Below are positions 34,281-53,664 of a DNA stretch of 64,000 bases, in pieces. The notes under the pieces were generated by a model, which saw only the letters and a program-made list of their open reading frames with translations, ran no database searches and was not told where the DNA came from. The first letter of the stretch is position 1; each line of letters begins with the position of its first letter. Source of the DNA: Petrotoga mobilis SJ95 (GTDB lineage: Bacteria > Thermotogota > Thermotogae > Petrotogales > Petrotogaceae); contig NC_010003.1 in NCBI RefSeq assembly GCF_000018605.1, positions 472,501-536,500 of the forward strand, read 5' to 3'. The position numbers were made by a program, and so were the translations under genes.

Positions 34281-35465
34281 TCAAAATGGTGTTTTGTCAA
34301 TATTTTTATTTTTATCTACGGGGGCTACTTCACCAAGGGTAACAAACCTTTTGGCTCCAGTTATTTGAGGTACATTATTTTTTCTTTCTTTGTAAGTTTG
34401 ATAAGCTATCACTGCAAACGCTACCGCTTCTTTAGCGTCACTTGAAAAACCTAATTCTTCGAGCACCATCACGGAAGCTTTTTTGCTTATCATCTTTTTT
34501 GCATAATCTTCTATCATCGATACCAAAGTAGGATTATAACTTCCTCCACCAGAGATTATAACTTGGTCTATGTTAGTACCTATAAATCTTAAGTAAGCAT
34601 CGACAATCGATTTAGCTGTAAAAGCTGTTACGGTTGCAACAATATCTTCGTCGTTTAATTTCATACTTTTTCCTTTGTTTATCACCTCTTTAGCATAATT
34701 TAACCCAAAAACTTCTCTTCCTGTTGTTTTGGGAGGTTCTTTTTTTATAAAAGGATGAGCCATTAGATCAGCTAAAAGAGCCTCAGAAATCTCACCTCTT
34801 TCACTAATCCTTCCATCTTTGTCATAACTTTGTTCTCCATTGGTTAGAATTTGAACTACGCCGTCTATAAGCATATTTCCTGGGCCTGTGTCAGTACCTT
34901 TTATATCTTCTAACTTGGATTTTTTTGGTATATAGGTGAAGTTTCCTATTCCTCCAATATTTTGCATAACCCTGTTGTAATAATTACTTTTGAACAAAAT
35001 ATAATCAACATATGGTACAAGTGGTGCACCTTGCCCTCCCGCTGCGATATCTCTCGCCCTAAAATTGCTAACGGTGGTAACTTGAGTTCTTTCTGCTATT
35101 ACACTAGCTTCACCTATTTGAAGCGTGGAAATAAAATCATCACTCACATAATGGTAGATAGTTTGACCATGGGAACCTATTAAACTAACATCTTGCATAT
35201 TCAAACCTTTTGATTCAACAACCTCTTTGGCGGCTTGAGCAAACAATTCTCCAAGCTCGAAATTCAATCTGCAGATTTTATCTACGCTACCAGTTGCAGG
35301 GTCGGAACATTCTAAAATTTTCCCTCTCATTTTTTTACTATAAGGTGTATTTATAAAATTAACAACCTTTACATTTAACTTTTGCTCACCCTGTTCTGTT
35401 ATTTCAACTAGTGCAGCATCTATTCCATCCACTGACGTCCCTGACATTAAACCTATAACCAACAT
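34281..35465 (-). CDS. anmK: Anhydro-N-acetylmuramic acid kinase
   Basis: A 394-residue AnmK that opens and phosphorylates 1,6-anhydroMurNAc to MurNAc 6-phosphate, the substrate of MurQ. The diagnostic LMSGTSVDGIDAALVEI opens the protein, and SHGQTIYHY, KGTDTGPGNMLID and ISGGGSYNPTLV follow. The open frame extends 11 codons upstream, but AAAGGAG is spaced for the ATG at 35465. It is the last gene of an operon with a serine hydrolase and a GH84 hexosaminidase; murQ lies 17 kb away in the same salvage region. Confidence 0.95.
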   Translation of the reverse strand: MLVIGLMSGTSVDGIDAALVEITEQGEQKLNVKVVNFINTPYSKKMRGKILECSDPATGSVDKICRLNFELGELFAQAAKEVVESKGLNMQDVSLIGSHGQTIYHYVSDDFISTLQIGEASVIAERTQVTTVSNFRARDIAAGGQGAPLVPYVDYILFKSNYYNRVMQNIGGIGNFTYIPKKSKLEDIKGTDTGPGNMLIDGVVQILTNGEQSYDKDGRISERGEISEALLADLMAHPFIKKEPPKTTGREVFGLNYAKEVINKGKSMKLNDEDIVATVTAFTAKSIVDAYLRFIGTNIDQVIISGGGSYNPTLVSMIEDYAKKMISKKASVMVLEELGFSSDAKEAVAFAVIAYQTYKERKNNVPQITGAKRFVTLGEVAPVDKNKNIDKTPF

Positions 35466-35501
35466 AATATCTTCTCCTTTTACTTCTAAAGTGTTCATTT
35501 A

Positions 35502-36512
35502 TTAATGATCTTTTCGAAAAATTATATTATTTATCTTATTTCTTATCACATTCAATTCAGGTTTTTTTAAGAATCTATCGTAATAAACAGAATTTGTCAA
35601 AAATATTGAAAATAACCCGTCTTTTCTAATCCAAATGGATGTACCTGTAAAACCATTGTGGCCGAATCCTGTACTATCAAGTGAGTATTGGCATCCTGCA
35701 ACAGGTGGAGCCATCCAGGCTATATGAGTAGCATTTTCCCCTCTTTTTACCACAGTAGTGGTAAAAAGATCTAAAGTGTCTTTTGAAACTATTTCCCCAT
35801 TTAACAAACTGATTATGAAAATCCTTAAATCACTTGCATTAGAAAACAAACCTGCGTTACCACTCACTCCACCTAAATAGTAGGCGAGTTCATCCTCGAC
35901 CACACCTTTTAACCTTTTACCTTCTCGGATAGATGTGGATACGGCTTTATCTTGATTCTTTGGGTTGAAACAAGTATTTTCCATCCCTATTTTTTTAAAA
36001 ATACCTTCAACATACTCTTGGTAATTCTTTTGAGTAACTTCTTCAACAATTTTCATCAGTGTTATGAAATTCAAACAAGAATATTCGTAACACTTGTAAG
36101 GGTTTTCTTGGGGCTGAATATTGATTATGTGCTTAAGCAACTCTTCTCCTCGATACTCTTCCCATAGATTTGAATAAGCTTGCATTCCAGAAGTATGAGT
36201 TAATAATTCAAAGATAGTAATTTCGCTTTTTGGACTACTTACCTCTATGAATTTGCCTATTTTATCTTCCAATTTTATTTGATTTTCATCTATTAGTCTC
36301 ATAACTGCGGTTGCAGTTCCAACCACTTTGGTAACACTTGCTAAATCAAAGATATCCTCTTCAGTAAGTCTTTCTTTTTCATCTTTTGTTCCGAAAGTAT
36401 TTTTATACAATATTTTTTCTTTTTTACCTATTAAAATGGATGCCCCTGTATACACATTATTTACTCCCGATGAAACAATTTCGTTTAAAGATTCGATATC
36501 TTTGTCTTTCAA
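35502..36512 (-). CDS. Serine hydrolase, class C beta-lactamase/PBP4-like
   Basis: A 336-residue serine hydrolase with the SxxK motif in ASVTKVVG and the third motif as GHNGFTGTS. The second motif, usually YxN or YSD, reads YSCLN. There is no signal peptide, so it is likely cytoplasmic. Relatives act as D-amino-acid peptidases, esterases or amidases. Placed between anmK and the GH84 gene, it may trim the peptide or lactyl part of imported muropeptides; this is inferred from context only. The start is a TTG at 36512 after GGGAAGTGATGA, and the stop of the upstream GH84 gene lies 4 bp before it. Confidence 0.8.
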   Translation of the reverse strand: MKDKDIESLNEIVSSGVNNVYTGASILIGKKEKILYKNTFGTKDEKERLTEEDIFDLASVTKVVGTATAVMRLIDENQIKLEDKIGKFIEVSSPKSEITIFELLTHTSGMQAYSNLWEEYRGEELLKHIINIQPQENPYKCYEYSCLNFITLMKIVEEVTQKNYQEYVEGIFKKIGMENTCFNPKNQDKAVSTSIREGKRLKGVVEDELAYYLGGVSGNAGLFSNASDLRIFIISLLNGEIVSKDTLDLFTTTVVKRGENATHIAWMAPPVAGCQYSLDSTGFGHNGFTGTSIWIRKDGLFSIFLTNSVYYDRFLKKPELNVIRNKINNIIFRKDH

Positions 36513-36516
36513 ATCA

Positions 36517-38202
36517 TCACTTCCCTTCGAAATCTTCTATAAATCTTTCTAAAATACCATCACAAACAACATAAGAACCTAATCTATCTACTTCAATTTT
36601 TATCTCAACTTTTTCATTAGAACTAAGCAGTTTACTAGCGATTTCTGCAAGCTGGGAAAGCTTTTTTAACCACGGTTGTATATCTTCATATAATTTTTTA
36701 TCTTTCATATATTTCAATTTTCTATCAAGATTGCCCAACCTCTCCAAGTATTCTTTTAGCTCTTTTCCCTTATTCAAAGGATCTTTTCTGAATTCTTTTA
36801 TTAGACTTTTCAACTTAAAGGATGTCTCCTCAAAAATTCTCGATTTTAGAAAATTTTCACTGAATAATTTCATATCTTCAAAAAAGTCTGACCCTACCAA
36901 ATTAAAAATAGATTTGTTCCAAGACCGCCAAGGATCGTAACCTTGTGAATTCCAAAGATAATCAGCTATTGTTTGTTCTGCAAGCATCGATGCATATGGC
37001 TGATTCATCGGATTTGAGATAACCCCTTTTACTCTTGAAATGCATAAGTCGTTTTCTCTGTTCATTAACGGGGCTAAGAAAAGTTCGCCTTGATCTGCAT
37101 CGTTTACCGGATAATTATCCCATAAGATCAAATCATGACCGAACTGGTTTGAAATCTTATCTGCGTTTTTTCTACTTACTCTTTTTGACCATACACCATT
37201 CCCTGTCCATATTACAGGAATTTCAGGATTTAAGTGTTCTTTCATCGTCCTTCTGTACATCGAATCCTCTTCCTGCCAATATTCCGTTGGACAGAAGTAC
37301 AGGTTAACCTCTGAATCTTTCCCCTTTAAAAACTCGAATAACTTGTTTGCTATATATGTCTGAGCCAAACCGTAATTCCCTTCAAACTTTTTTTCATCCT
37401 CTTCGTAATTCAATTTTTCAGGGATATCATCGAAAAGAATAGCAAATTTTTTTACACCTTTACTTAAAATTTCATAGTATTTTTTGCACAATAAATCAAA
37501 CTCTTTTTGATCGCTAAATTTCATGCTAAGTCCTGGGCTTACACAAAACACAAAATCGACAAAATTGTCTTTTGAGACTTTTATTAACTCATCTATTTTT
37601 TCCATTTCTTCCTCTGGATAATCCTCTCGCCATTTTTCCCTGTGATATGGATCGTCTTTTGGAGCGTACCAATAGGTATTCATTTTATTTCTTCCACAAA
37701 AATTTATCATATCCAATCTGTTTTCATGGCTCCATGGTTCCCCATAAAAACCTTCAATTACTCCTCTCATTTTAAAAGAAGGAGAATCGAATATCTCTAC
37801 TACTGGTAGAATTTTGTTTTCTAAGTCAATAAGTTGTTTTAGAGTTTGTAATCCATAAAAAATACCTTTCTTTGATTTTGAAAAGATTTTAACCGTCCTA
37901 TTTTCTTTTTCGACTTTAATCAAATAGCTTTCTAAATCCATAATATCGATACTTAACTCTATATCATTGCTTTTGATAAATTCATTTAAGTCCTTTTCAG
38001 AAGGAGAAATAAAAGATTCTATTTTTAAGTCGGAATAAACTGGGTCTATTACAAAGACAAAATCTTCACTCGGAAAAATCTTAATAAAGCTTTCTTCTTC
38101 GAAATTTTTCAAAATAGAAAGCTTCGAACTTTCAAAGTGAATATTTGCACCTTCATAGAATAATTTTTTTGGTTTTGGATTTAATCTGAGAAACAAATCC
38201 AT
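36517..38202 (-). CDS. GH84 beta-N-acetylglucosaminidase
   Basis: A 561-residue hexosaminidase of family GH84 (NagJ/O-GlcNAcase type). Residues 1-150 form the N-terminal alpha/beta domain. The barrel follows with RGVIEGFYGEPWSHENRLDMI and NTYWYAPKDDPYHREKWR. The catalytic Asp pair is in FAILFDDIPEKL. A helical C-terminal domain ends the protein. Secreted homologues are common, but this one has no signal peptide, so it would act on imported GlcNAc-containing sugars. GGAGGAG is placed for the ATG at 38202, not the ATG at 38220. A GC-rich repeat lies about 60 bp upstream. Confidence 0.92.
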   Translation of the reverse strand: MDLFLRLNPKPKKLFYEGANIHFESSKLSILKNFEEESFIKIFPSEDFVFVIDPVYSDLKIESFISPSEKDLNEFIKSNDIELSIDIMDLESYLIKVEKENRTVKIFSKSKKGIFYGLQTLKQLIDLENKILPVVEIFDSPSFKMRGVIEGFYGEPWSHENRLDMINFCGRNKMNTYWYAPKDDPYHREKWREDYPEEEMEKIDELIKVSKDNFVDFVFCVSPGLSMKFSDQKEFDLLCKKYYEILSKGVKKFAILFDDIPEKLNYEEDEKKFEGNYGLAQTYIANKLFEFLKGKDSEVNLYFCPTEYWQEEDSMYRRTMKEHLNPEIPVIWTGNGVWSKRVSRKNADKISNQFGHDLILWDNYPVNDADQGELFLAPLMNRENDLCISRVKGVISNPMNQPYASMLAEQTIADYLWNSQGYDPWRSWNKSIFNLVGSDFFEDMKLFSENFLKSRIFEETSFKLKSLIKEFRKDPLNKGKELKEYLERLGNLDRKLKYMKDKKLYEDIQPWLKKLSQLAEIASKLLSSNEKVEIKIEVDRLGSYVVCDGILERFIEDFEGK

Positions 38203-38260
38203 TAAAACTCCTCCATTCAAATATGAAATAAATACTGTTTTTAAAAATTCTATAACTTGA

Positions 38261-38290: not shown

Positions 38291-38385
38291 TTTTTTTATT
38301 TCTAAAATATTTTAATATGGAATAAAGTAATTACTTTATTATCAATAATTGTTTTTTGTATTATATCATGTTTATTTTTAAAATG

Positions 38386-38413: not shown

Positions 38414-38447
38414 TATACAAAACTTATTAAACTAGGGGGTGTGTTTT

Positions 38448-39710
38448 ATGAAAAAATTACTTGTTTTAATGTGTGTTTTGATTGTTAGTTTGTTCGTTTT
38501 TTCTGAAGAAGTTATAACTTTGAATTTAATTGAAGCCTTTTCAAGCCCCTACAGAACACCTACCTTAAACAACATAATACAAATGTTCGAGACTTTGAAT
38601 CCTGGAGTAAAAATTAATGTTATCTCTCCACCATACGAAACAGCCTATCAAAAGATCAATTTAATGGTAAGTACAGAACAACCACTTGATATTGTAGAGA
38701 TAGGCGACTGGGATTTAAGTGCATTAGCTGCTATGGGGAAATTAGAAGATTTGACTCCCTATATCGAGTCCTGGCCTGAAAAAGATGACATGGTCGAAGG
38801 AGTTTTAGAAGCCGCCAGCATTTACCAAGGTATCCCTTATTTGTTACCTCACGGCATTTTTGTAAAAGCACTCTTTTACAGACCAGATATTTTAGCAAAA
38901 TACGGGATTGAAAACTATCCAAAAACAATGCCTGAATTGTACGAAATATCAAAGACATTAACAGAATCCGGCAAAAATCAGTATGGTTTCGCATTTAGAG
39001 GTAAGGGTTATCCAACCGCGTTTATTGATATTGTTATCACTTCATTCTTTGATGATATAGATCCAAACAATATGTATTTAACTAAATCTGGTGAAATTAT
39101 TTTTGAAGATCCAAGGGCTGTAGAAGCGTTAAATTTCTATGTTAGTTTGTATAAAGACACATCTCCAAAAGATTCAATTAACTGGGGATGGGATGAACAA
39201 GTTAATTCGTTTGTTTCTGGCATAACACCTCTATTATTTCAAGATCCTGACACCACTGGCATGCTAAACGAAATGCTTCAACCAGGCCAATATAAAACTG
39301 CCCCACTTCCCCTAGGAACAAGTGGAAAAGCTTACCCTTCCTTTGGATTCGTTGGCTGGGGAATTCCTACATATTCAGAACATAAGGATTTGGCTTGGAA
39401 ATTCATTAAATTCGTTGCTTCAGCTGAAATAAACGGATATTGGAGCAAGAGTTATGGTGCTTTACCAGTATTAGAATCAGTTTATACGTACGATTCATAT
39501 TTCAGCTCAGAAATTTTCGAAGGTTGGACCAGGATGTTTGACGATCCCGAACATTATCAATTTACTCAGTACCCCTTAGATAATGAAAACTGGGGAAAGT
39601 GGAATGAATTCCAGGAAAAAACAATGCAGCAGGTGTTGCTCGGGCAACTTTCTGTGGAAAGTTGCTTAAAACAATGGACTGACTTTTGGAAAGATGCAGG
39701 CATTAAATAG
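38448..39710 (+). CDS. Sugar ABC transporter substrate-binding protein (CUT1)
   Basis: A periplasmic sugar-binding protein of about 420 residues (family 1, MalE/UgpB-like). It has a signal peptide (residues 1-20, VLIVSLFVFSEE) and the pattern NNIIQMFETLNPGVKINVI, then GWGIPTYSEHKDLAWKFIKF. The ligand is unknown. Because it is divergent from GH84/anmK and next to the muropeptide genes, an amino sugar or a MurNAc-GlcNAc disaccharide is the leading guess. The ATG at 38448 is preferred over an upstream GTG because AGGGGGT lies 7 nt before it. Confidence 0.9.
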   Translation: MKKLLVLMCVLIVSLFVFSEEVITLNLIEAFSSPYRTPTLNNIIQMFETLNPGVKINVISPPYETAYQKINLMVSTEQPLDIVEIGDWDLSALAAMGKLEDLTPYIESWPEKDDMVEGVLEAASIYQGIPYLLPHGIFVKALFYRPDILAKYGIENYPKTMPELYEISKTLTESGKNQYGFAFRGKGYPTAFIDIVITSFFDDIDPNNMYLTKSGEIIFEDPRAVEALNFYVSLYKDTSPKDSINWGWDEQVNSFVSGITPLLFQDPDTTGMLNEMLQPGQYKTAPLPLGTSGKAYPSFGFVGWGIPTYSEHKDLAWKFIKFVASAEINGYWSKSYGALPVLESVYTYDSYFSSEIFEGWTRMFDDPEHYQFTQYPLDNENWGKWNEFQEKTMQQVLLGQLSVESCLKQWTDFWKDAGIK

Positions 39711-39719: not shown

Positions 39720-40595
39720 TTGAAACGAAGAAAATTCATTTTTTTCTTGTTATTACCCACTTTGTTATTAATATCTTTTATCATTTTATACCCCACTATC
39801 AGTGGGGTAATGTTGTCTTTTAAAAATTACTCCCTTTATAACTTCCAAAACATTGAATGGATAGGCTTTGAAAATTTTAAAGCCATTTTTTCCGACCCTT
39901 TTTATATAGATACTATTTGGAACACTTTGGAATGGGTTTTATTCTCTGTGCTTTTCCAGCTAATCTTAGGTTTTATTTTAGCTCTTTTAATGAAAGAGCC
40001 TTTTAAAGGTAGAGGCATATATGCAGGATTAGTCTTTTATCCATGGGCAATCTCTGGATTTGCCATAGGCTTAATATGGTCATGGTTGTTAAATGGTCAA
40101 TTTGGGGTGATCAATGATATATTAATAAAAATTGGAATTATTGAAGAAAACATTAGTTTCCTTTCGGATCCTTCGTTAGCAATGTTTTCTGTTATTTTAG
40201 TGAATGTTTGGTATGGAATACCTTTTTTTGCCATTATGATTTTAGCAGCCTTACAGTCTGTCCCTGATTCTCTTTACGACGCTGCGGAAATCGACGGCGC
40301 AGGTTACTTCACAAAGCTTTTTAATATCACTATACCTTATATAAAACCTACTCTGATAAATACCATTTTATTGAGAACTATATGGGTTATGAATTTCCCT
40401 GATATCATTTACGGCATGACACGTGGTGGACCTGGTGGAAGTACTGAGATTTTAGCTGTAAAGATGATAAATACCGTTTTTTATGAATCAGACTATAGTA
40501 AAGCCGCAGCACATGGTGTAGTTATCATTTTAATTCTTTTCATTTATACTATGATGTACTTAAAATTAACTTCTAAACGGGAGTTTAGCCTATGA
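39720..40595 (+). CDS. Sugar ABC transporter permease 1 (MalF-like)
   Basis: A 291-residue inner-membrane permease with six predicted helices and the EAA-type loop DAAEIDGAGYFTKLFNITIPYIKP that docks the ATPase. A TTG start at 39720 follows AGGTGG with 6-nt spacing; no ATG is suitably placed. It overlaps the second permease by 4 bp. No ATPase gene is present in this operon, so a shared MsmK/UgpC-type ATPase elsewhere probably energises it. Confidence 0.9.
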   Translation: MKRRKFIFFLLLPTLLLISFIILYPTISGVMLSFKNYSLYNFQNIEWIGFENFKAIFSDPFYIDTIWNTLEWVLFSVLFQLILGFILALLMKEPFKGRGIYAGLVFYPWAISGFAIGLIWSWLLNGQFGVINDILIKIGIIEENISFLSDPSLAMFSVILVNVWYGIPFFAIMILAALQSVPDSLYDAAEIDGAGYFTKLFNITIPYIKPTLINTILLRTIWVMNFPDIIYGMTRGGPGGSTEILAVKMINTVFYESDYSKAAAHGVVIILILFIYTMMYLKLTSKREFSL

Positions 40596-41422
40596 AGAAA
40601 AAAATTTTGCCTAAATTTATACGTATAATTTTACTATCTATGTTTTTTATTTTTGCAAGTTTCCCGTTATATTGGATTATACTAACTTCGTTAAAACCAC
40701 CCCAAGAAATATACTCCTTTCCAATTAGGTATTGGACAAATAATCCTACTCTATTAGGGTACAAGAGATTATTTGAATTCGTCAATTTTAAAAGGTATTT
40801 TGTAAACAGTATTTTCGTATCTTTAGGCGCTTCCTTTGTTTCAACAATATTTGCCATGCTAAGTGGGTATATACTTTCAAGAAAAGAATTCAAATGGAAA
40901 TATCCTATTATATTATTTTTATTTTTTTCTCAGATGATCCCAACTTATTTAATCATGGTTCCACAATATACAATGTTTTCAAATTTAAATTTAATCAACA
41001 AACTAATCAGCTTAGTAATAATTTATAGTGGTTTTGGAGCTGCTTTTAGTACAATAATGGCTAAGGGTTTTTTTGATAGAATTCCAAAAAGTATCGAAGA
41101 AGCTGCTTTAATTGACGGATGTAATGAAATCCAATCTCTATTTAAAATCACTATTCCCTTAATGTTACCTGGTTTATCGGCTATTCTTAGTTTTTCTTTT
41201 GTAAATAACTGGAATGAGCTGTTTACTGCTGTGATGTTTTTAAACACCTCCGACAAATATACCGTACCTGTTGGGCTATATTCTATTGTATCAAAGGCAG
41301 GTGTTCAGTGGAATGTGCTGGCTGCTGGAATTGTGATCGCTCTTTTACCAACAATTATAGTATTTTCGATCTCTCAAAAGTATATTATTGCAGGCCTTAC
41401 ACAGGGAAGTTTAAAAGACTGA
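40592..41422 (+). CDS. Sugar ABC transporter permease 2 (MalG-like)
   Basis: A 276-residue permease with an EAA loop (EEAALIDGCNEIQSLFKITIPLMLPG) and the family-typical C-terminus SQKYIIAGLTQGSLKD. It is an intact counterpart of the broken permease found at 9005-10807, though the two are clearly different genes. It is translationally coupled to permease 1 through an ATGA overlap. It is the last gene of the three-gene operon. Confidence 0.9.
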   Translation: MKKKILPKFIRIILLSMFFIFASFPLYWIILTSLKPPQEIYSFPIRYWTNNPTLLGYKRLFEFVNFKRYFVNSIFVSLGASFVSTIFAMLSGYILSRKEFKWKYPIILFLFFSQMIPTYLIMVPQYTMFSNLNLINKLISLVIIYSGFGAAFSTIMAKGFFDRIPKSIEEAALIDGCNEIQSLFKITIPLMLPGLSAILSFSFVNNWNELFTAVMFLNTSDKYTVPVGLYSIVSKAGVQWNVLAAGIVIALLPTIIVFSISQKYIIAGLTQGSLKD

Positions 41423-41540
41423 TAAGGATTTTAAAACAATCATTTCTTCTTTCACCAAAAAAGCTTTAGGAAAAAACTAAAAAAATTTCAAAAAATATGC
41501 TTCACCCAAAAAGATAGAAAAATATAAGCTCTGATAATTT

Positions 41541-42920
41541 TTATATTTTATTAAGGCCTTGTGTGATTTTTACAGCCGATGAAAGAGAGTCCAAATAAGT
41601 AGTTCTCGTACCTAAAGTATAAGCAGAAAGAGGCATAATAAATGTACCATGAATATCGAAACTCTCAAAATCTCCATTAGTTTTTTTCTCTTTAAAGCCC
41701 GCCCCTTGATGTATTACATAGTATTCATTTCCAAATTTACCTAAATACATCATCACGTGACCTTTCATAAAAAGAATATCCCCGGTTTTTAAACCATCTA
41801 AAATTATTTTCCTTTCCTCTGTTTGCTGAGGAAAAGAAGTTCTTTCAGCAGGAGTCATGATTTCTTGATACTTAGTATCTCTTGGCAAATATATTCCAAA
41901 ACACTTAAATATATCCATTATGAAACGTGAACAATCTCTATTGTAATCGCTCCCTCCCCAGCCATATCTTTCACCAACCATTTTAAACGCTTGTTTAATT
42001 AAATTTCTCTGGTTGAAATCAAGGAAAGAAGTTTTTACTTCTTTTGCCGAAGAAACTGGAAAAATCCCATATGTTTCATTGTCCAATCTATTTTTAAGAG
42101 GGATTTTTATCGGATAACACCCTTCAGGAAATAGGGTGTTCATTTCAAAATAAAATTTTTTTGTTTCATTTTCATCTGCTAGAACTAACTTATCTCCCAT
42201 CTGAAAACGAAATTTACCAATGGTAGGCAACTCTTCGGTGCAAACTTTACTTTCCATCAATATTAGAGTTCTTGTTGATTTATTGTAATCAAAAAATTCT
42301 TTTTTAGAAACTTCAATTAAACTTTTTCTGTTTATCCATCCTGAATAAAAAGAGCTCTGAACAAAATACCAATTCAGTTTAAAACTTCTTCTGTATATTA
42401 AAATCGGTTCTCCTGGTGAAAGAGTAGTGAGCCTGGTAATATCATGAAAAGGATAATTTGGTGTTATTCCCAATGGATATTTAAAAGGGATCGATTTTAG
42501 GCCACTTCTATTGGTTATTAAGCCAAAAGATATCGGAATATCCGCAGAAATCCCCTTTTTGAAATCTCGAAAGTTTGAAAGGAACTCTTTTAATTGATAT
42601 TTATTCAATGGTTTTATTTTTTCACTATCTTTGAAAAATAAATTTTCTTGCATTAATTTTTCTAAATCTTCCATCGACATTATCTTTTCAATTTCGTTTA
42701 TAAAATCATCTGATGTTACTTCTTTTTTAGAATCAGAGAAAACATAATAATAGTTTTCTAAATGAGATTCAACCATCTTCTTATATAGAAGATGGTTGAA
42801 TGATTTTATTTCATATTCATCCACCAAAATTTCATCGGGGTTATGCAACCTATCAATCCAAAAATCTGGATCATATAACCTTTTATCTTTTAAATGAGTA
42901 CATATAAATTCACTTACCAT
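41541..42920 (-). CDS. Cytoplasmic NlpC/P60 endopeptidase with SH3 domains
   Basis: A 459-residue protein with a helical N-terminal domain (residues 1-130), SH3-like domains (about 150-290) and a C-terminal NlpC/P60 cysteine peptidase domain. The catalytic Cys is in YNRDCSRFIMD (about 329), and the His residues are in MKGHVMMYLG and VIHQGAG. This N_NLPC-SH3-SH3-NLPC layout is that of murein-peptide-recycling gamma-D-Glu-diamino-acid endopeptidases. There is no signal peptide, so it should act on imported peptides. It is the last gene of the Dpp-LysA operon. GGAG precedes the ATG. Confidence 0.9.
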   Translation of the reverse strand: MVSEFICTHLKDKRLYDPDFWIDRLHNPDEILVDEYEIKSFNHLLYKKMVESHLENYYYVFSDSKKEVTSDDFINEIEKIMSMEDLEKLMQENLFFKDSEKIKPLNKYQLKEFLSNFRDFKKGISADIPISFGLITNRSGLKSIPFKYPLGITPNYPFHDITRLTTLSPGEPILIYRRSFKLNWYFVQSSFYSGWINRKSLIEVSKKEFFDYNKSTRTLILMESKVCTEELPTIGKFRFQMGDKLVLADENETKKFYFEMNTLFPEGCYPIKIPLKNRLDNETYGIFPVSSAKEVKTSFLDFNQRNLIKQAFKMVGERYGWGGSDYNRDCSRFIMDIFKCFGIYLPRDTKYQEIMTPAERTSFPQQTEERKIILDGLKTGDILFMKGHVMMYLGKFGNEYYVIHQGAGFKEKKTNGDFESFDIHGTFIMPLSAYTLGTRTTYLDSLSSAVKITQGLNKI

Positions 42921-42923: not shown

Positions 42924-44216
42924 TTATCTCCATTCGCTATTTTCGATATCCCTTTTTATCAAATCATCGTAAACTTCTCTTCTTGTTATCAGCTTATGTT
43001 TCCCATTCTTGACTAAAACAATGGCGGGTTTTAGAAAACCATTATAATTATTTGACATCGAATTGGTATAATCTCCAGTAGATGGGATCGCTAACAAATC
43101 TCCAGGTTTTATTTCTGGAAGACAAGTCTCTTCAATCAAAATATCTCCTGATTCACAGGCCCTACCAGCTATTGTAACCTTTTCTAAGTTGATTGTATCT
43201 TTTGGCCGATTCGCAATAAACACCTCATATTTTGCACCATATAATGCAGGCCGAATATTATCAGCCATGCCTCCATCAACAACCACATATTTTTTATTTT
43301 CTGTTCTCTTGATTGTGCCAACAGTGTACAGTGTGGTTCCAGCGCTAGAAATAATATATCTACCTGGTTCTACTATTATTTTTGGAGAAGGATAATGAAA
43401 TTTACTTGATAAAAATCTAACTTCTTGAATGACTCCTTTTATAGCCTCCTGAATATCTATAGCTTTTTCAAAAGTCGAGTGCGCTACACCGAATCCTCCA
43501 CCAATATCAATTTCTGGTAAAACAGCCCCTGTTTCTTCTCTTATTTTGTTCAAAAGATCAAAAAAAGTCTTTACTAACTCCACATAAGGTTCTGCCTCGT
43601 TTATTTGAGAACCTATATGTGCATGAATACCTTTTATCTCCAAATTTTCAGAATTTTTGATGGATTTAATAAGTTTCAACATGTCATCAAAAGACATCCC
43701 AAATTTGGAATCTTTTTGACCGGTTGAAATATACTTATGAGTGTCTGGAGTAATGTTGGGGATAACCCTAAAATAAATTTTTGCCTTTTTTCTTAATCTT
43801 TTACTGATCCTTTCAATGTTTCTAAATTCATCTTCATTATCAACTATAATGTGACCTACATCATTCTCTAGAGCCATAACTAATTCTTCGTTAGTCTTAC
43901 TGTTTCCGTTAAAAAAAATTTTGTTTGCAGGAAAAGAACTATGAAAGGCTATATACAGTTCTCCACCCGAAACCACATCTAAAGACACATTTTCACTTTG
44001 TAAAATTCTACAAAGCTCTGTATTCAAAAATGCCTTCGAAGCATAAGCGATTTCATAATTAGTATAATCAGCACTCTCGAAGGCACTTTTTAACCTTTTG
44101 ATATTCTCCCTAATTTGAGCTTCATCCAATACTAATAATGGAGTACCATACTCGTTAGCTAAGTGAGTACTTTTTACCCCAGAAATTTCCAATACACCAT
44201 CTTTATCTATTTTCAT
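42924..44216 (-). CDS. lysA: Diaminopimelate decarboxylase
   Basis: A 430-residue PLP enzyme of fold type III that converts meso-diaminopimelate to lysine and CO2. The PLP lysine is in YASKAF (Lys61). HAHIGSQ, DIGGGFG, VEPGRYI and the active-site CESGD are all conserved. Finding it in a peptide-transporter operon next to an NlpC/P60 peptidase, rather than with lysine biosynthesis genes, suggests it uses diaminopimelate freed from imported muropeptides. The ATG overlaps the dppF-like gene by 14 bp. Confidence 0.95.
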   Translation of the reverse strand: MKIDKDGVLEISGVKSTHLANEYGTPLLVLDEAQIRENIKRLKSAFESADYTNYEIAYASKAFLNTELCRILQSENVSLDVVSGGELYIAFHSSFPANKIFFNGNSKTNEELVMALENDVGHIIVDNEDEFRNIERISKRLRKKAKIYFRVIPNITPDTHKYISTGQKDSKFGMSFDDMLKLIKSIKNSENLEIKGIHAHIGSQINEAEPYVELVKTFFDLLNKIREETGAVLPEIDIGGGFGVAHSTFEKAIDIQEAIKGVIQEVRFLSSKFHYPSPKIIVEPGRYIISSAGTTLYTVGTIKRTENKKYVVVDGGMADNIRPALYGAKYEVFIANRPKDTINLEKVTIAGRACESGDILIEETCLPEIKPGDLLAIPSTGDYTNSMSNNYNGFLKPAIVLVKNGKHKLITRREVYDDLIKRDIENSEWR

Positions 44217-46097: not shown

Positions 46098-46922
46098 TCA
46101 CACCCCTCTTAGTCTTGGATTTGTAATCTCATCAATAGAGAAATTAAGCAAAGCAAAACTGGCACCTAATGTTGCTATAGCTGCTCCAGGAGCCAAAACC
46201 CAGCCCCATGAATTATTTAATAGGGCACTGCTGTTTTGGGCCCAATACAACATTGTTCCCCAGGTTATAGAACTAACATCTCCAAATCCAAGAAATTCTA
46301 ATGAAGCTTCACCAACAATCGCTGTTAAACAAGCCATAAAAAAGTTAGAAGAAAGCAAAGAAAACATGTTTGGCATGATCTCAGAAAAGATTATTCTTCC
46401 ACTTTTTTCACCTGTTATTTTTGAAGCAAGGATGAACTCGCGACCCCTCATTGTCAGCGTTTGTGATCTTATAACCCTTGCTCCAGGAGCCCAACTTGTG
46501 AATGCTATTACTAAAATAATAGGTACAACTCCCCTAATTCTTATGTAAGAAGCTATAACTATCATTAAAGGCAAACCCGGAATTACCATAAAAACGTCTA
46601 TTATTGTGGAAAGTATCCTATCAACTAATCCTCCAAAATATCCAGCTGTCATCCCTATTAATATCGAAATACTCGTCATCAAAGCCCCTGTTGAAAGCCC
46701 AACTATTAAAGAAAGCCTCGTTCCATAAATCAATTGAGATAATATGTCCCTTCCCATCCTATCAAGCCCTAACGGATGATTAAAGGTAGGCTGACTATAT
46801 GGGGGTCCTACAAAATCGTTGGGATTGTAAGGTGCAAAAAAAGGAGCAAATACAGCTACTATAACAAAAAATAATATTATTGATAACCCCACAATGGCTT
46901 TTTTGTTTAGCTTTTTTATCAT
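46098..46922 (-). CDS. dppC: Peptide ABC transporter permease (DppC-like)
   Basis: A 274-residue permease with about six helices. HPLGLDRMGRDILSQLIYGTRLSLIVGL is the standard DppC opening and ASKITGEKSGRIIFSEIMPN is the ATPase-contact loop. AGGGG precedes the ATG at 46922. It sits 6 bp after dppB and 3 bp before dppD. Confidence 0.92.
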   Translation of the reverse strand: MIKKLNKKAIVGLSIILFFVIVAVFAPFFAPYNPNDFVGPPYSQPTFNHPLGLDRMGRDILSQLIYGTRLSLIVGLSTGALMTSISILIGMTAGYFGGLVDRILSTIIDVFMVIPGLPLMIVIASYIRIRGVVPIILVIAFTSWAPGARVIRSQTLTMRGREFILASKITGEKSGRIIFSEIMPNMFSLLSSNFFMACLTAIVGEASLEFLGFGDVSSITWGTMLYWAQNSSALLNNSWGWVLAPGAAIATLGASFALLNFSIDEITNPRLRGV

Positions 46923-46928: not shown

Positions 46929-47903
46929 TCAACCCCTTGTCCTTGGATCTAGGAAAATGTAAATAAAATCAAGCAAAAAGTTAGCTAACAAAACGGATAA
47001 AGATATAATGAAGAAAATGGCTTGCATTAGCGGGTAATCCTGGCTAGTAACACCCTTATACATTAAATATCCTATTCCAGGATATGAAAAAACAATTTCT
47101 GTCAATAATGCTCCGCCTACTATATAACCTAAAGAAAGACCAAAAGAAGTTACGCTGGGAAGAAGCGCGTTTCTTGCTGCATACCTATTCATAATCTCTT
47201 TATCTTTCAGACCCTTAGCTTCGGCAACCACTATAAAATCTTCTGAAAGTGTTGATATCATATTATTTCTCATGGTTAAGATCCAGGTACCTAAGGAAGC
47301 TAAGACTAATGTAAGAGCAGGAAGAAATCCGTGATATAACACACTTCCTACAAATCGCCATCCAGTTAAAAATTCTTGTGTTGAATAAGCATTTGAAAGT
47401 GGAAATGCTCCTAACATAAATCCAAAAACATAAAGCAAAATCAAGGCTAACCAAAAATATGGAAAACCTCTAATTATTAGGCCAATGATTGTTACAAAAG
47501 AATCAAATGGTGTATTTCTTTTCCACCCCGCTCTTATTCCCAAAGAAGTTCCTAAAATAAAGCTGATTACCGTTGAAATTCCCACAAGCCCAATAGTCCA
47601 TGGTAAAGATGAAAAAATTAAATCCTTTACCTCAACAGGGTAATATGAATACGACACACCAAAATTAAAAGTTAAAGTATTTTTTAAATAAGAGAAGTAT
47701 TGTTTGAGTATAGGTGTTTCTTTATCGACGCCCAACGCTATTCTCATTGCGTCAACTGCTTCAGGCTGCACCTCTCCACCCATTCTTAAAAGTATTCTTT
47801 CTGCAGGATCGCCAGGCATCAACCGCGGCAATATAAAGTTGATTGTAAGTGCAGCAATTAAAGCTATTACAAAAAAGAAAATCTTTTCTCTCAAATATTT
47901 CAT
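46929..47903 (-). CDS. dppB: Peptide ABC transporter permease (DppB-like)
   Basis: A 324-residue permease. The N-terminal LPRLMPGDPAERIL is the standard DppB signature. The EAA-type loop is VVAEAKGLKDKEIMNRYAARNALLPS. TGGAGGT precedes the ATG. A strong hairpin lies between this gene and the upstream binding-protein gene and probably lowers its expression relative to the binding protein. Confidence 0.92.
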   Translation of the reverse strand: MKYLREKIFFFVIALIAALTINFILPRLMPGDPAERILLRMGGEVQPEAVDAMRIALGVDKETPILKQYFSYLKNTLTFNFGVSYSYYPVEVKDLIFSSLPWTIGLVGISTVISFILGTSLGIRAGWKRNTPFDSFVTIIGLIIRGFPYFWLALILLYVFGFMLGAFPLSNAYSTQEFLTGWRFVGSVLYHGFLPALTLVLASLGTWILTMRNNMISTLSEDFIVVAEAKGLKDKEIMNRYAARNALLPSVTSFGLSLGYIVGGALLTEIVFSYPGIGYLMYKGVTSQDYPLMQAIFFIISLSVLLANFLLDFIYIFLDPRTRG

Positions 47904-47963: not shown

Positions 47964-49559
47964 TTACTTAACAGGTTCCAAGTTCATCATTATGTATGCT
48001 TTATCCATTCCGGTTATAGTTGGTAAAGCATATGGATTCTCCTTATTAGGCCATCCTTCAAAATTATATGTAGTATATTCAAACCATGTTGGATTGTAAA
48101 ATAAAGGAATAGCAGGAATTTCTTGCAAAACAATGAGTTGGAGTGAGGAAATAGCAAGTTGTCTCTCTTTTTCATCTGAAGTCTTTCTGAAAATTTCCAA
48201 CAAAGAGTCTGTGGTTAAGCTAATCCAACCACCTCTGTTGTCACCACTATAAGCATTCCTAGAGTGCAACCACCTTTCATAGAAAAAGTAAGGATTTATA
48301 CCGTAATTCACCCAACTCAACGCCAATTCAAAATCTTTATTTCTAATTCTCTCTAAATACAATCCAAAATCGACTTGTGATACAACTACATCTATCCCTA
48401 TTTGTTTTAATTGGGAGGAAAGTACTTGTGACACTGCTATCCAGTCTGTCCATCCAGCAGGAACTATCAGTTCAAAACTTAATTTGTTTCCATTACTATC
48501 AGTGAATATGCCATCTCTACCGATACTATACCCCAAATCATTCAACATCTCTTTTGCTTGTTCGGCATCTTTGTCATACCACATATGTTTTAAATTATCA
48601 TTGATTAATTCTGAGAAACCACCTTTTATCAATACCGGATTAGAAACAGTGGCTAAATTCGACATTCCTATCTGTACCAGCTGTTCATTATCTATACCCA
48701 AAGCAATAGCTTTTCGGAAATTCTCATCTTTAAACCTTTCATCATCAAGGTTAAAGAAGAGTAGGACTGGGTTCCCTTCCGGGAGCCAATAACCTCTGTT
48801 CTCTGGATCGGCTTTAATAAATATATTCTCAATATTTGGAAAGAACAAAGTCCCCCAATCAATTTCTTTATTCATTAAAGCCAGTTGAGCAGCGTCGTTT
48901 CCAGTAAAGGCAGGAATTCTAATAGTATCGACTTTCACCTTTTCTTTCTGCCAATAATTTGGATTTTTCTCCAATGTATAAACTTGGCTAGTAAATTGTC
49001 CTAACAAGTAAGCACCTGTTCCAATAGGGTTTTCAGCAGTGTAAGTGGTTGGATCACTTAGATTTAACCAGATATGTTCGGGGACAATGTATACGCTAAA
49101 AATATCTGTATATATGAGTGTATCAACTTGAGATAAAACAAACTTAACATGTTGATTATCCACTTTGGTTACCTCTTTCAAGCCTTTTTTCCACATACCT
49201 CCAGTATCCAGAGCGGGATAACTTTTAATCATGTTAAAAGTAAATACCACATCATCTGCGTTAAAATTCTCTCCATCAGACCATTTAACATTTTCCCTTA
49301 ATGTAACTTCAAGTTCCAAATAATCATCAGACCATTCGTAATCTGTGGCTAACCATGGGACAACCTCGCCAGTATATCCGTTAATGTAAAACAAAGTTTC
49401 GTAAATGAAACCTCTAGCCGAGAAGTTACTACCACCTGAAAAATAAGGGTTGAAATTTCTTGAAAACGGCCCTGTCACATCCATGATCATAGAAAGAGTA
49501 CTTGCAAACGAAAACACACTTAAAACAGAAATCACTACAAACAAAAGTATCTTTTTCAT
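47964..49559 (-). CDS. Peptide ABC transporter substrate-binding protein (family 5)
   Basis: A 531-residue periplasmic binding protein (SBP_bac_5, DppA/MppA/CbpA-like) with a signal peptide (residues 1-18, VISVLSVFSFAS). LEVTLRENVKWSDGENFNADDVVFTFNMI is the family signature. The ligand may be a murein peptide given the LysA and NlpC/P60 genes downstream. In Thermotogota this family also includes oligosaccharide binders, so a muro-oligosaccharide is an alternative. It is the first gene of the seven-gene operon. GGAGGG precedes the ATG. Confidence 0.9.
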   Translation of the reverse strand: MKKILLFVVISVLSVFSFASTLSMIMDVTGPFSRNFNPYFSGGSNFSARGFIYETLFYINGYTGEVVPWLATDYEWSDDYLELEVTLRENVKWSDGENFNADDVVFTFNMIKSYPALDTGGMWKKGLKEVTKVDNQHVKFVLSQVDTLIYTDIFSVYIVPEHIWLNLSDPTTYTAENPIGTGAYLLGQFTSQVYTLEKNPNYWQKEKVKVDTIRIPAFTGNDAAQLALMNKEIDWGTLFFPNIENIFIKADPENRGYWLPEGNPVLLFFNLDDERFKDENFRKAIALGIDNEQLVQIGMSNLATVSNPVLIKGGFSELINDNLKHMWYDKDAEQAKEMLNDLGYSIGRDGIFTDSNGNKLSFELIVPAGWTDWIAVSQVLSSQLKQIGIDVVVSQVDFGLYLERIRNKDFELALSWVNYGINPYFFYERWLHSRNAYSGDNRGGWISLTTDSLLEIFRKTSDEKERQLAISSLQLIVLQEIPAIPLFYNPTWFEYTTYNFEGWPNKENPYALPTITGMDKAYIMMNLEPVK

Positions 49560-49893: not shown

Positions 49894-49923
49894 ATTATAC
49901 TACTATAATTTTTCTTTTGCAAA
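49894..49923 (-). promoter_or_regulatory. Candidate promoter for the dpp-lysA operon
   Basis: On the minus strand TTTGCA (49918-49923) and TATAAT (49894-49899) are 18 bp apart. This would leave a leader of about 330 nt before the binding-protein ATG, so a nearer promoter is also possible. Confidence 0.3.
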
Positions 49924-50006
49924 TTAGAGATAACGAGATATAATCTTCTAATCCAAAATAATTGCCTATAATTCCAAATAATCGCTCTTAATTAAAAAAA
50001 ATAGAA

Positions 50007-50036
50007 TTGACATATTGTTATAACTTAAGATACAAT
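50007..50036 (+). promoter_or_regulatory. Promoter of the namZ-nagZ-murQ operon
   Basis: A consensus -35 TTGACA (50007-50012) and a -10 TACAAT (50031-50036) with 18-bp spacing, 34 bp before the ATG. GTGGGGGAG follows as the ribosome site. Confidence 0.65.
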
Positions 50037-50070
50037 ATGTATAATAAAAAAAAGTGGGGGAGAATATTAA

Positions 50071-51225
50071 ATGATTCTTCAAGGTTTGGATTTAATGGAA
50101 AAAGATGGGTTCACAAAATTAAAAAACAAAAAAGTTGGTTTGGTAATAAATTATTCCTTAGTTAACAAAAATATGGAAGATGGCATAGAAATAATGTTGA
50201 AAAATGGAGTAGATATAAGAAAAATATTTACACCCGAACATGGATTATATGGTCTTGCTGATGGAGTTGAATACTCAGATCAGATTCATCCTTTATATAA
50301 TATACCAATTATTAGCTTATATGGAAAGCACAAAAAGCCTACACAAGAAATGTTAGAAGATATCGACATACTAGTATACGATATTCAAGATGTTGGCTTA
50401 CGATTTTATACTTTTATATACACTCTAGCTAATACAATAATTTCCGCCCAAGAAAATAGTAAAAAAATAATCATATTAGACAGAATAAATCCTTTAGGAA
50501 GGATTGTTTTTGGTTCACGAATAAAAAAAGAATATTCAACTTTTGTTGGTGGATATGAACTTCCTTTAAGATATGGTTTGACACCAGGTGAATTAGCAAA
50601 GTACTACAAAAAATATCTTGACCTTGATTTAGATCTTGAAATCATTCCTATTGAAGGATGGAAAGGAGAATCATTTGAAAACACTAAATTGAAGTGGAAT
50701 ATTCCCTCACCCTCTCTTCCAACATTTGATTGTACCTTGGCTTACAGTGGAACTTGTCTCATAGAGGGGACTAATGTAAGTGAAGGAAGGGGAACTCCTA
50801 AACCTTTCTGTTTCGTGGGAGCTCCTTGGATAGATGAAAACATTCTATACAAATTCATAAAAGAAAAATTTCCCTATTTAATTTTAAGAAAAAGGTATTT
50901 TATACCAAATTCTTCTAAATACCAAGGTGAATTGTGCAAGGGCATAGAATTTTTCCCTGAAATTAAAGATAATTTTACCATTGTTGCCATAGAGATTATA
51001 CGCCACTTAATTCAACAAAAAGAAGAATTTGAGTTTAGAAAATACATAGATAAAGGAAGTCAAACACAAAGAGATCATATAGAAAATTTATTGGGGGAGG
51101 ATAAAAAAATTTTCTTTGAGAATAATGACACTTATTTAAATGAATTGTACAAGAGCTCCCAAGATTTCATTGATTTTTGTGAAGATATACTATTATATGG
51201 AGGATTAAAACTATGGAAAGTTTAG
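50071..51225 (+). CDS. namZ: Exo-beta-N-acetylmuramidase NamZ (DUF1343)
   Basis: A 384-residue DUF1343 protein (GH171). The family was shown in Bacillus subtilis to remove terminal MurNAc from peptidoglycan chains. Conserved blocks include TPEHGLYGLADG, IISLYGKHKKPT, LVYDIQDVGLRFYTFIYTL, a mid-protein LAYSGTCLIEGTNVSEGRGT and PFCFVGAPWID. Unlike the secreted Bacillus enzyme, no signal peptide is visible, so it would work inside the cell. It is the first gene of the operon with nagZ and murQ, and it overlaps nagZ by 13 bp. Confidence 0.92.
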   Translation: MILQGLDLMEKDGFTKLKNKKVGLVINYSLVNKNMEDGIEIMLKNGVDIRKIFTPEHGLYGLADGVEYSDQIHPLYNIPIISLYGKHKKPTQEMLEDIDILVYDIQDVGLRFYTFIYTLANTIISAQENSKKIIILDRINPLGRIVFGSRIKKEYSTFVGGYELPLRYGLTPGELAKYYKKYLDLDLDLEIIPIEGWKGESFENTKLKWNIPSPSLPTFDCTLAYSGTCLIEGTNVSEGRGTPKPFCFVGAPWIDENILYKFIKEKFPYLILRKRYFIPNSSKYQGELCKGIEFFPEIKDNFTIVAIEIIRHLIQQKEEFEFRKYIDKGSQTQRDHIENLLGEDKKIFFENNDTYLNELYKSSQDFIDFCEDILLYGGLKLWKV

Positions 51226-52799
51226 AGAAGGCTTTGGGGAAACTATTCTTAATAGGGATTCAAGGAACCTCTTTAAACAACGAAAATATGAAGGTTTTAA
51301 AATCAACTTTGCCTGGGGTTATCATTTTCTTTTCACGAAACATAGAAAACAAATATCAACTTAGCAAGTTTATCGAAGATATTAAAAATTTTTTAGATTA
51401 CGAACCCTTATTTTGTATCGATCAAGAAGGTGGAACGGTAGCAAGATTAAAAAAAGGATTTACTGTTGTACCCAGCGCTATGGGTATAACTGCGACTAAC
51501 GAAGCAGAGAATGCATATCTTTCTGCAAATTTACTTGCAAAAGAAATGTTAGCAGTTGGAATCGATTGGAATCTTGCTCCAGTTGTTGATATCAACAACA
51601 ACCCAAAGAATTCTGTAATTGGAATTAGAAGTTTTTCCGATGATAAAAATGTGGTACTAAAGTTTGCCCGTGAATATGTGAAGGGATTGCATGACGGGGG
51701 AGTACTTTCTTGTCTAAAACATTTCCCTGGTATTGGGAACGTCAACACCGATCCTCATTTAGACCTTCCCCAAGGCGAATTAAGCAAAGATGATCTTCTT
51801 TCAACAGAGTTATTCCCGTTTCTAAATATTGATTCTCCTTCATGGATGCCGACTCATGTGTACCTTTCCAAGATACAAAATAAAAAAGAACCAGCATCTT
51901 TATCAGAAGAGATTTTAACAGGATTGGCAAGGGAAGAACTAAAATATAAAGGAGTTTTGGTTGCGGATGATTTTGAGATGGGGGGAGTAGCAAACTTTTA
52001 TTCAGCCCAAGAGGCAGTAATAAAATCACTGAATGCCGGAATGGACATAGTTAGTATCTGCCATTCTTTTGAAAAACAATCAGCAGCCAAAAACGCTGTA
52101 TTGAGAGAGTATAAAAATAACGAAAATTTTAAAAAGAAGATAAATTCATCACTAGAGAGAATCCAATCGTTAATGAAAATTTCAGCAGATTTGAGGGAGA
52201 AAAACAATAATAAAATATCACTAGAAGAAATTGGCAAAAAAGAATATATAAACTTAGCTAAAAATATTTTTGATAAATCTATCACTGTTCTTAATATGTC
52301 TCATGACAAAAGCTTTTTGCCTTTAAAAAACGTTGATGAAATTTATTACTTTGCTAAAGAGTCATTATCTTACGGAATCGAAGACAAAAGAACACAAATT
52401 TCTTATATTATTGAGCCAATATCAAAAGAACTCAAAGCAAAAGTAAACATTTTAGAAACGAGTAAAATAATTGACCCTCTGGTAAGGGAAGAAATAATTC
52501 AAAACTCTAAAAACAAAACTATCTTGGTTCTAGCTGAAAATGCATATTTGCATTCAGAATTGGTTGATTTGATAAGTAACATGTCCCAAAAATCAAAAAA
52601 ACTAATTTTAGTTGCTTTAAGAAACCCATATGACGTATTTATTCCTAAAGTAAAGTACGGAATTTGCACATACGGTTTTAATGAAAATATTCAAACTTCT
52701 TTGCTTAAAATTCTCAAAGGAGAAATAAAACCAACTGGGAATTTACCAATTAAACGGAGGCTAGAAAATGCTAGAGAATCTGGAAACCGAAAAAAGTAA
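51213..52799 (+). CDS. nagZ: Beta-N-acetylglucosaminidase NagZ-like (GH3)
   Basis: A 528-residue GH3 enzyme. The N-terminal barrel has CIDQEGGTVARL, LAPVVDINNNPKNSVIGIRSF, LKHFPGIGNVNTDPHLDLP and the nucleophile Asp in VADDFEMGG. The usual KHFPGHG box reads KHFPGIG, so its His is replaced by Ile; the Asp-x-His dyad is kept as DPH. It has an extra C-terminal domain of about 190 residues, like Bacillus-type NagZ. It has no signal peptide. It should release GlcNAc from GlcNAc-MurNAc. It overlaps murQ by 32 bp, so translation is coupled. Confidence 0.9.
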   Translation: MESLEKALGKLFLIGIQGTSLNNENMKVLKSTLPGVIIFFSRNIENKYQLSKFIEDIKNFLDYEPLFCIDQEGGTVARLKKGFTVVPSAMGITATNEAENAYLSANLLAKEMLAVGIDWNLAPVVDINNNPKNSVIGIRSFSDDKNVVLKFAREYVKGLHDGGVLSCLKHFPGIGNVNTDPHLDLPQGELSKDDLLSTELFPFLNIDSPSWMPTHVYLSKIQNKKEPASLSEEILTGLAREELKYKGVLVADDFEMGGVANFYSAQEAVIKSLNAGMDIVSICHSFEKQSAAKNAVLREYKNNENFKKKINSSLERIQSLMKISADLREKNNNKISLEEIGKKEYINLAKNIFDKSITVLNMSHDKSFLPLKNVDEIYYFAKESLSYGIEDKRTQISYIIEPISKELKAKVNILETSKIIDPLVREEIIQNSKNKTILVLAENAYLHSELVDLISNMSQKSKKLILVALRNPYDVFIPKVKYGICTYGFNENIQTSLLKILKGEIKPTGNLPIKRRLENARESGNRKK

Positions 52800-53664
52800 C
52801 CCTAAGACTCAGAATTTGGACGAGATGGACATACATGAAATACTAAGAATAATTAATCAAGAGGATGCAACAATAGCGTTATCCATCGCCGAAAATTTAG
52901 AGAATATAGAAAATGTGGTTGCCAACTGTATTTCAGCTATTAAGAATCACGGAAGGATCATATATGTTGGGGCAGGGACGAGTGGTAGAGTGGCCGTTGT
53001 AGATGCGGTAGAAACAGTTCCAACTTTTGGTATAGATTCCGGGATTTTTCTCCCCTTAATCGCGGGAGGAGAAAAAGCCTTCTTTCAAGCTACAGAACAT
53101 GTTGAAGATTACGAAGAAAGCGGGAAAAAAGACTTAGAAAAAAATAACGTCCGTTCTGAAGATTACGTAATAGGGATAACTGCTAGCGGGCGAACCCCTT
53201 ATGTAAAAGGTGCTTTATCTCTGGCAAAAGAAATAGGATGTAAAACTGCTTTAATATGCAACGTAAAAAACCCTGAATTGATGGAATTTTCGGATATTGT
53301 AGTTTCTTTGAGAACGGGCCCAGAAGTCATTGCAGGAAGTACAAGAATGAAAGCGGGCACAGCCCAAAAAATGGTTTTAAATATGATAAGCACTGTCACC
53401 ATGATAAAACTTGGAAAGACTTTTAAAAACTACATGGTGGACGTAAAAATCATGAATCAAAAATTAGAAGAAAGAGCAGTAAGAATAATTTCTGAGGTAA
53501 CCGGATTAGATAAAAAAACCTGCAAAGAGTACTTAATCAAGGCTGATATGAAACCCAAATTGGCAATACTGATGATTCTATCTGGAAAAGACAAAGAATT
53601 TTGTATCGAAGCTCTAAAGAAAAACGAAGTATTGCATGAAGCATTGAAAACATTAAAGAATTAA
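52768..53664 (+). CDS. murQ: N-acetylmuramic acid 6-phosphate etherase
   Basis: A 298-residue MurQ that cleaves the lactyl ether of MurNAc 6-phosphate to give GlcNAc 6-phosphate and D-lactate. The SIS domain shows IYVGAGTSGRVAVVDAVETVPTFG with the catalytic Glu, GITASGRTPYVKGAL and GPEVIAGSTRMKAGTAQKM. The C-terminal helical UBA-like segment is present. It completes the pathway fed by NamZ/NagZ and AnmK. GGAGG lies 7 nt before the ATG. A strong terminator follows. Confidence 0.96.
   Translation: MLENLETEKSNPKTQNLDEMDIHEILRIINQEDATIALSIAENLENIENVVANCISAIKNHGRIIYVGAGTSGRVAVVDAVETVPTFGIDSGIFLPLIAGGEKAFFQATEHVEDYEESGKKDLEKNNVRSEDYVIGITASGRTPYVKGALSLAKEIGCKTALICNVKNPELMEFSDIVVSLRTGPEVIAGSTRMKAGTAQKMVLNMISTVTMIKLGKTFKNYMVDVKIMNQKLEERAVRIISEVTGLDKKTCKEYLIKADMKPKLAILMILSGKDKEFCIEALKKNEVLHEALKTLKN

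Follow-up and report, generated by a model that had tools for sequence, protein, structure and literature searches.

How might a bacterium that lacks a suitable sugar phosphotransferase system (PTS) live on fragments of peptidoglycan? The question is raised by a gene island of Petrotoga mobilis SJ95, at positions 34281-53664 of the window, the 64,000-nucleotide stretch that was analysed (G000:C1:472501-536500; the genome, G000, is one contig, C1, of 2,169,548 bp). A preliminary description had placed a set of peptidoglycan-degrading genes and two ATP-binding cassette (ABC) importers within 19 kb in four adjacent operons; coordinates and family matches confirm all of them, and every named gene is intact with a clear family match. 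We regard it as likely (probability about 0.8) that this is a PTS-free peptidoglycan-salvage island, fed by ABC importers and served by cytoplasmic enzymes, from which murK, encoding the N-acetylmuramic acid (MurNAc) kinase, has been deleted in this lineage. The island represents known MurNAc and murein-peptide rescue in a PTS-free form whose MurNAc kinase has clearly, and unusually, been lost. Its features, in window coordinates, are:

34281..35498, minus strand: AnmK, 1,6-anhydro-N-acetylmuramic acid kinase (NF007151/PRK09585 equivalog, 667 bits against a cut-off of 599; PF03702)
35502..36512, minus strand: SerHyd, cytosolic S12/beta-lactamase-family serine hydrolase (PF00144; alignments; AlphaFold model)
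36517..38220, minus strand: GH84 beta-N-acetylglucosaminidase, leaderless (PF07555, 358 bits; DD catalytic pair in AILFDDI; nearest PDB entry NagJ, 6pv5)
38439..39710, plus strand: CUT1 solute-binding protein with signal peptide (PF01547; hydropathy)
39720-40595, plus strand: CUT1 permease 1 (PF00528)
40592-41422, plus strand: CUT1 permease 2 (PF00528)
41424..41473, plus strand: murK scar, 50 nt (blastn and tblastn against sister species)
41541..42920, minus strand: YkfC-like NlpC/P60 gamma-D-Glu-diamino acid endopeptidase with SH3b domain (PF00877 and PF12913; Pfam domains SH3_6 and NLPC_P60; PDB 3m1u)
42924..44216, minus strand: second LysA, diaminopimelate (DAP) decarboxylase (TIGR01048, 468 bits against a cut-off of 298)
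44203-45174, minus strand: DppF (Pfam)
45147-46094, minus strand: DppD (Pfam)
46098-46922, minus strand: DppC (Pfam)
46929-47903, minus strand: DppB (Pfam)
47964-49559, minus strand: DppA (Pfam)
50007..50036, plus strand: namZ promoter with putative GntR operator TTGACATATTGTTATAACTTAAGATACAAT (kept in relatives; core also at the gntR-nagB-nagA promoter of G000)
50071..51225, plus strand: NamZ exo-beta-N-acetylmuramidase, leaderless (PF07075 and PF20732; NamZ_N 227 bits, NamZ_C 95 bits; a family we take to be GH171)
51213..52799, plus strand: NagZ-type GH3 beta-N-acetylglucosaminidase, leaderless (PF00933; NF003740/PRK05337 equivalog, 235.5 bits against a cut-off of 207; PDB 3bmx, YbbD/NagZ)
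52768..53664, plus strand: MurQ, MurNAc-6-phosphate etherase (TIGR00274 equivalog, 323.3 bits against a cut-off of 302)

The four operons alternate in strand: GH84-SerHyd-AnmK (minus), CUT1 (plus), DppA-B-C-D-F-LysA-NlpC/P60 (minus) and NamZ-NagZ-MurQ (plus). The CUT1 operon consists of the solute-binding protein and two permeases and encodes no CUT1 ATPase. An Rfam search of the island gave no lysine riboswitch or other RNA, a neighbouring tRNA being the only match.

In the proposed mechanism, the ABC importers would take up murein sugars and peptides, and cytoplasmic enzymes would cut both. On the sugar side, NamZ would remove MurNAc, and NagZ N-acetylglucosamine (GlcNAc), from disaccharides; AnmK would convert anhydroMurNAc to MurNAc-6-phosphate, MurQ would convert this to GlcNAc-6-phosphate, and NagA and a SIS-type glucosamine-6-phosphate deaminase under a GntR regulator would complete the route. 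On the peptide side, Dpp would import peptides, the S12 hydrolase would trim D-Ala, the YkfC-like NlpC/P60 enzyme would cut between L-Ala-D-Glu and the diamino acid, an epimerase would convert the D-Glu, and the dedicated second LysA would turn DAP into lysine. The island had been credited with the complete digestion, but NagA, the deaminase (NagB-II), GntR and the dipeptide epimerase are encoded elsewhere in G000, the first three in an operon at G000:1686891-1689671. The assignment of the SIS-type deaminase scores below the curated cut-off.

Leaders were sought by the hydropathy of the first 45 residues, a heuristic rather than SignalP. Solute-binding proteins and permeases score above 2.7, the former with clear leaders. 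The island hydrolases score 0.7-2.0 and have no leader-like stretch, and in-frame upstream extensions of their genes are not leader-like either. Homologues in relatives are also leaderless; the few values above 2.2 are start-codon artefacts or weak stretches. The signal peptides that would have spoken against cytoplasmic hydrolases therefore did not appear by this measure, and the proposed location is supported. PTS_EIIC has no match in G000 by family search and is present in only 8 of the 103 Thermotogota genomes sampled, in agreement with the proposal that no PTS takes part.

NamZ yields MurNAc, which needs MurK. AnmK acts only on 1,6-anhydroMurNAc, and the substrate of MurQ is MurNAc-6-phosphate. 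The NamZ and AnmK branches therefore meet at MurNAc-6-phosphate, and the linear order NamZ, NagZ, AnmK, MurQ assumed at first is wrong; there are two branches, and the kinase that would link NamZ to MurQ is deleted here. In three sister genomes (G049, G050 and G051) murK lies between the CUT1 operon (GH84 in G051) and NlpC, and its product matches the profile of the solved MurNAc/GlcNAc kinase 8zo3 (E 3e-46). MurK is absent from the whole of G000 in protein and family searches, the basis of all absences from the genome given here. The window was inspected for a hidden MurK and holds only the scar, 50 nt at 41424-41473 that are 96% identical to G049 murK (blastn E 7e-20; also found by tblastn). 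The flanks are syntenic and ~89-90% identical to the sister species (blastn E 2e-45 and 4e-55). Because the remnant sits between intact syntenic flanks, murK was deleted here. Of the recognised MurNAc routes, only AnmK-MurQ is complete in this lineage.

Two other kinases were considered as replacements. For AmgK, the genome gives a single weak, partial APH match. A ROK gene at 30936 is grouped with Ppx/GppA, CHAD and SixA genes and was not assumed to encode a MurNAc kinase. Its operon (29410-34052) comprises Ppx/GppA, the ROK sugar kinase, a CHAD-domain protein, a SixA-like phosphatase and a membrane protein; it is a polyphosphate-linked cluster, with the ROK gene as a candidate polyphosphate-dependent glucokinase.

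The same module recurs across the phylum. Some contigs in the sample of 103 genomes end early, so linkage counts are lower bounds. NamZ was found in 52 genomes and a GH84 match in 31. MurQ lies nearby in at least 27 of the 48 NamZ neighbourhoods inspected (24 of these 27 also hold MurK), SerHyd in at least 24 and AnmK in at least 21. The typical arrangement is NamZ-NagZ-MurQ-GntR-MurK; an ABC importer, either Dpp or CUT1, lies in the vicinity, as does SerHyd-AnmK, a pair that reappears in different families. The clustering is not due to chance. Lack of synteny had been named as grounds for abandoning the proposal; among the Thermotogota relatives compared, the module is conserved and its order varies, and the murein-salvage assignment is supported by these neighbourhoods together with the family matches. 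In G049 the stretch between MurQ and GNAT (L063 9857-10963 and on) also holds a ROK repressor, a second GH3 gene and one more CUT1 importer; the window lacks these and has PolX at the site.

Outside the phylum, the gene set with ABC importers is found in many Paenibacillus, Ruminiclostridium (L292), Halanaerobium (L255), Vagococcus (L304) and others; Clostridia are among the groups with the module. A MurK homologue is present at 30 of 73 NamZ loci outside the phylum and AnmK at 26, and most of these NamZ proteins are leaderless by hydropathy. Leaderless NamZ with ABC importers, being common in other phyla, is therefore not a Thermotogota peculiarity, and the set as such is not unique to the phylum. 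AnmK, SerHyd, NamZ and NagZ are also clustered in Haladaptatus litoreus (L262 4843-12764) and Halocatena marina (L293 5082-12818); the same clusters hold Dpp-type genes and encode a HAD phosphatase and a ~400-aa uncharacterised protein. Haloarchaea make no murein; these gene clusters suggest that they possibly scavenge bacterial cell wall. At three loci (L260, L291 and L311) NamZ domains lie inside much longer open reading frames (about 780-840 aa), in which NamZ may be fused to a further hydrolase domain.

The promoters of namZ and gntR-nagB-nagA share TTGAC(A/T)TATTGTTATAACT, a site that Petrotogaceae relatives retain in front of namZ and G051 in front of murK; GntR may bind this putative operator at both promoters. 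The long palindrome ACATATTGT...ACAATATGT before namZ was also considered as operator; relatives keep only part of it, and the shorter conserved TATTGTYATNACT is preferred.

The membership of GH84, listed with the island in the preliminary description, is weakened by the survey. In other genera GH84 usually occupies a separate locus with a CUT1 importer, often with a ROK gene (in G046, G052, G019 and G021, mostly with ROK and away from NamZ), and the operator-like site is missing from the GH84/CUT1 promoter in the window. The odds are about even that GH84 and CUT1 form a separate route for chitin- or glycan-derived GlcNAc oligosaccharides and are accidental neighbours here. Set against this, GH84, SerHyd and AnmK share one operon in two genera, and CUT1 genes ~60% identical to those of the window adjoin NamZ in family f8 (L092, L228). 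In neighbourhoods of that family NamZ occurs with CUT1 and without other sugar genes. In f8 (L092, L229) the window-like CUT1 operon also stands beside an isoaspartyl-dipeptidase gene (TIGR01975) and the NamZ-CUT1 operon; the dipeptidase is of the type paired with the epimerase in G000 (L200).

The second LysA, the YkfC-like NlpC/P60 protein and Dpp form a murein-peptide branch. By alignment, the catalytic Cys-His-His of the NlpC/P60 protein is C330, H388 and H404, and Tyr319, Trp321, Asp329-Cys330-Ser331 and Asp348 (18 after the Cys) match the YkfC residues that recognise gamma-D-Glu and a free N-terminal L-Ala (PMC2954226). In BcYkfC, Tyr118 of SH3b1 contacts the free L-Ala (PMC2954226). YkfC-type enzymes spare UDP-MurNAc-pentapeptide and are therefore safe in the cytoplasm (PMC2954226). 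An operon in G046 (L233) combines DppABCDF, an L-Ala-D/L-Glu epimerase-like enzyme, SerHyd, LysA, an M19 dipeptidase and NlpC, and in G036 and G037 (L071, L073) the epimerase gene adjoins GH84. The G000 epimerase adjoins an isoaspartyl dipeptidase (L200); its nearest PDB entries are 3jva and B. subtilis 1jpm. In family f9 (L096, L097, L099) the NamZ cluster has next to it a Dpp operon that shares 51-64% identity with the one in the window. In G050 (L064) the NlpC/P60 gene is split and LysA is truncated, near the right end, and in place of the window-type Dpp operon there is another, 24-39% identical to it; the peptide branch is decaying there.

Thermotogales peptidoglycan is reported without meso-DAP (PMC5487896); if that of Petrotoga also lacks DAP, the second LysA would plausibly point to foreign murein as food. 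It is somewhat doubtful, though by no means far-fetched, that the island serves mainly to recycle material released in turnover of the cell's own wall. AnmK suits the products of the cell's own lytic transglycosylases, the source of anhydroMurNAc, and two SLT (lytic transglycosylase-type) genes are encoded in the genome; Lys-type peptides are also cut by YkfC-type enzymes (PMC2954226). A dedicated second DAP decarboxylase, however, makes little sense if the cell's own murein is without DAP, and the genes are dispensable within the genus. MurE of this genome has DDPK, not the DNPR of E. coli; the Thermotoga motif is DDPR (PMC3829189).

The murK deletion raises a further alternative, that the sugar module is a decaying remnant and no longer functions. 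The genus offers a series of losses: the scar is also present in G047, where murK was deleted as well and NamZ is found nowhere in the genome, and G048 has lost most of the island, keeping little beyond GH84 and part of SerHyd. In G000, however, NamZ, NagZ, MurQ and AnmK are intact. The dN/dS values are 0.15-0.18 for NamZ, 0.12-0.15 for NagZ and 0.07 for MurQ, against 0.19, 0.16 and 0.10 between the MurK-bearing G049 and G050; that of AnmK is similar to the value between MurK-bearing species. Selection is therefore not visibly relaxed; NamZ, NagZ and MurQ are still under purifying selection despite the loss of murK, which makes a dead module improbable. It is very improbable that Dpp-LysA-NlpC is ordinary peptide uptake with lysine biosynthesis, for although importers of the Dpp type are widespread and LysA serves in biosynthesis, another LysA sits in a full lys operon elsewhere (LysC-DapD-DapB-DapA-LysA-Asd; neighbour functions read from the sequence by eye, LysA confirmed) and relatives share the operon with NlpC, epimerase and dipeptidase.

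SerHyd carries the motifs SxxK (S59, K62), YSC and HxG in alignments. Its AlphaFold model, a confident one (pLDDT 87.6), has as nearest folds the D-stereospecific hydrolase 9s7k, the R61 DD-peptidase and alkaline D-peptidase. D-stereospecific hydrolases, R61 DD-peptidase, class C beta-lactamases and esterases match about equally, and the fold alone therefore does not give the substrate. The protein recurs with AnmK or NamZ in Thermotogota, Firmicutes, Poribacteria and haloarchaea, and with the peptide operon in G046. Model and context tentatively suggest a D-Ala-releasing muropeptidase, an assignment slightly short of even odds. A 6-O-acetylesterase is disfavoured, as the 1,6-anhydro sugar used by AnmK cannot bear a 6-O-acetyl group. 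A viral fold search with SerHyd gave nothing useful.

Several points weigh against the salvage island as a whole. Its functions are predicted from sequence, the murein substrates of both importers are putative, and the leader test is heuristic. The murein-salvage role of GH84 and CUT1, which usually lie elsewhere in other genera, is uncertain. For MurNAc, the product of NamZ, this genome encodes no recognised kinase. A muramoyl-L-Ala amidase was not identified either, though no genome-wide amidase search was made. The GH84, CUT1 and Dpp promoters of the window lack the operator-like site; the four operons are therefore probably not one regulon.

Known systems provide a frame for the salvage island. 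In Bacillus subtilis, MurNAc and muropeptide rescue is encoded by murQ-murR-murP-amlB-nagZ-amiE-namZ; that species secretes NagZ and NamZ and imports through the PTS protein MurP. As there, MurQ, NagZ, NamZ and an S12-family hydrolase are clustered in Petrotoga, but the enzymes are leaderless by hydropathy, import is by ABC systems with no PTS EIIC, and AnmK is added. The B. subtilis murein-peptide pathway is dpp-ykfABCD. It shares with Petrotoga a Dpp-type importer, a YkfC-type endopeptidase, an L-Ala-D/L-Glu epimerase and a cytoplasmic location, whereas in Petrotoga a second LysA is added, the epimerase lies elsewhere, and the island has no LdcA-type YkfA gene, the S12 hydrolase being proposed instead. 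The NagZ/AmiE step (Litzinger 2010) and the YkfABC pathway (PMC2954226) of B. subtilis have been described. The MurK-MurQ route of Clostridium acetobutylicum (MurK, PMC10465942), in which a BadF-type kinase phosphorylates free MurNAc ahead of MurQ, is matched in relatives only, this Petrotoga species having lost MurK. Like E. coli recycling (AmpG, NagZ, AmpD, AnmK, MurQ), the island has AnmK, MurQ and a cytoplasmic NagZ; unlike it, ABC importers in the cluster replace AmpG, and NamZ and a YkfC type are present. AnmK is also shared with the Pseudomonas route of AnmK, MupP, AmgK and MurU (PMC5371407), from which the island differs in having MurQ.

We found no account of peptidoglycan salvage or recycling in Thermotogota in the open-access literature. 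It is unlikely that all parts of the widest picture hold together, namely a PTS-free cytoplasmic feeding module common to Thermotogota, Firmicutes and haloarchaea, SerHyd as a new muropeptide enzyme, LysA as a sign of feeding on foreign DAP-murein, and an unrecognised kinase that handles MurNAc now that murK is lost. The recurrent S12 hydrolase is nevertheless a candidate new muropeptide enzyme. The stepwise loss within the genus (murK in G000 and G047, sugar genes in G047, most of the island in G048) supplies a ready-made series from which to learn which steps the cell can do without. The cluster offers a PTS-free route that can be tested. Since murein of this phylum has, according to reports on Thermotogales, lysine in place of DAP, self-recycling can be distinguished from feeding on other bacteria.

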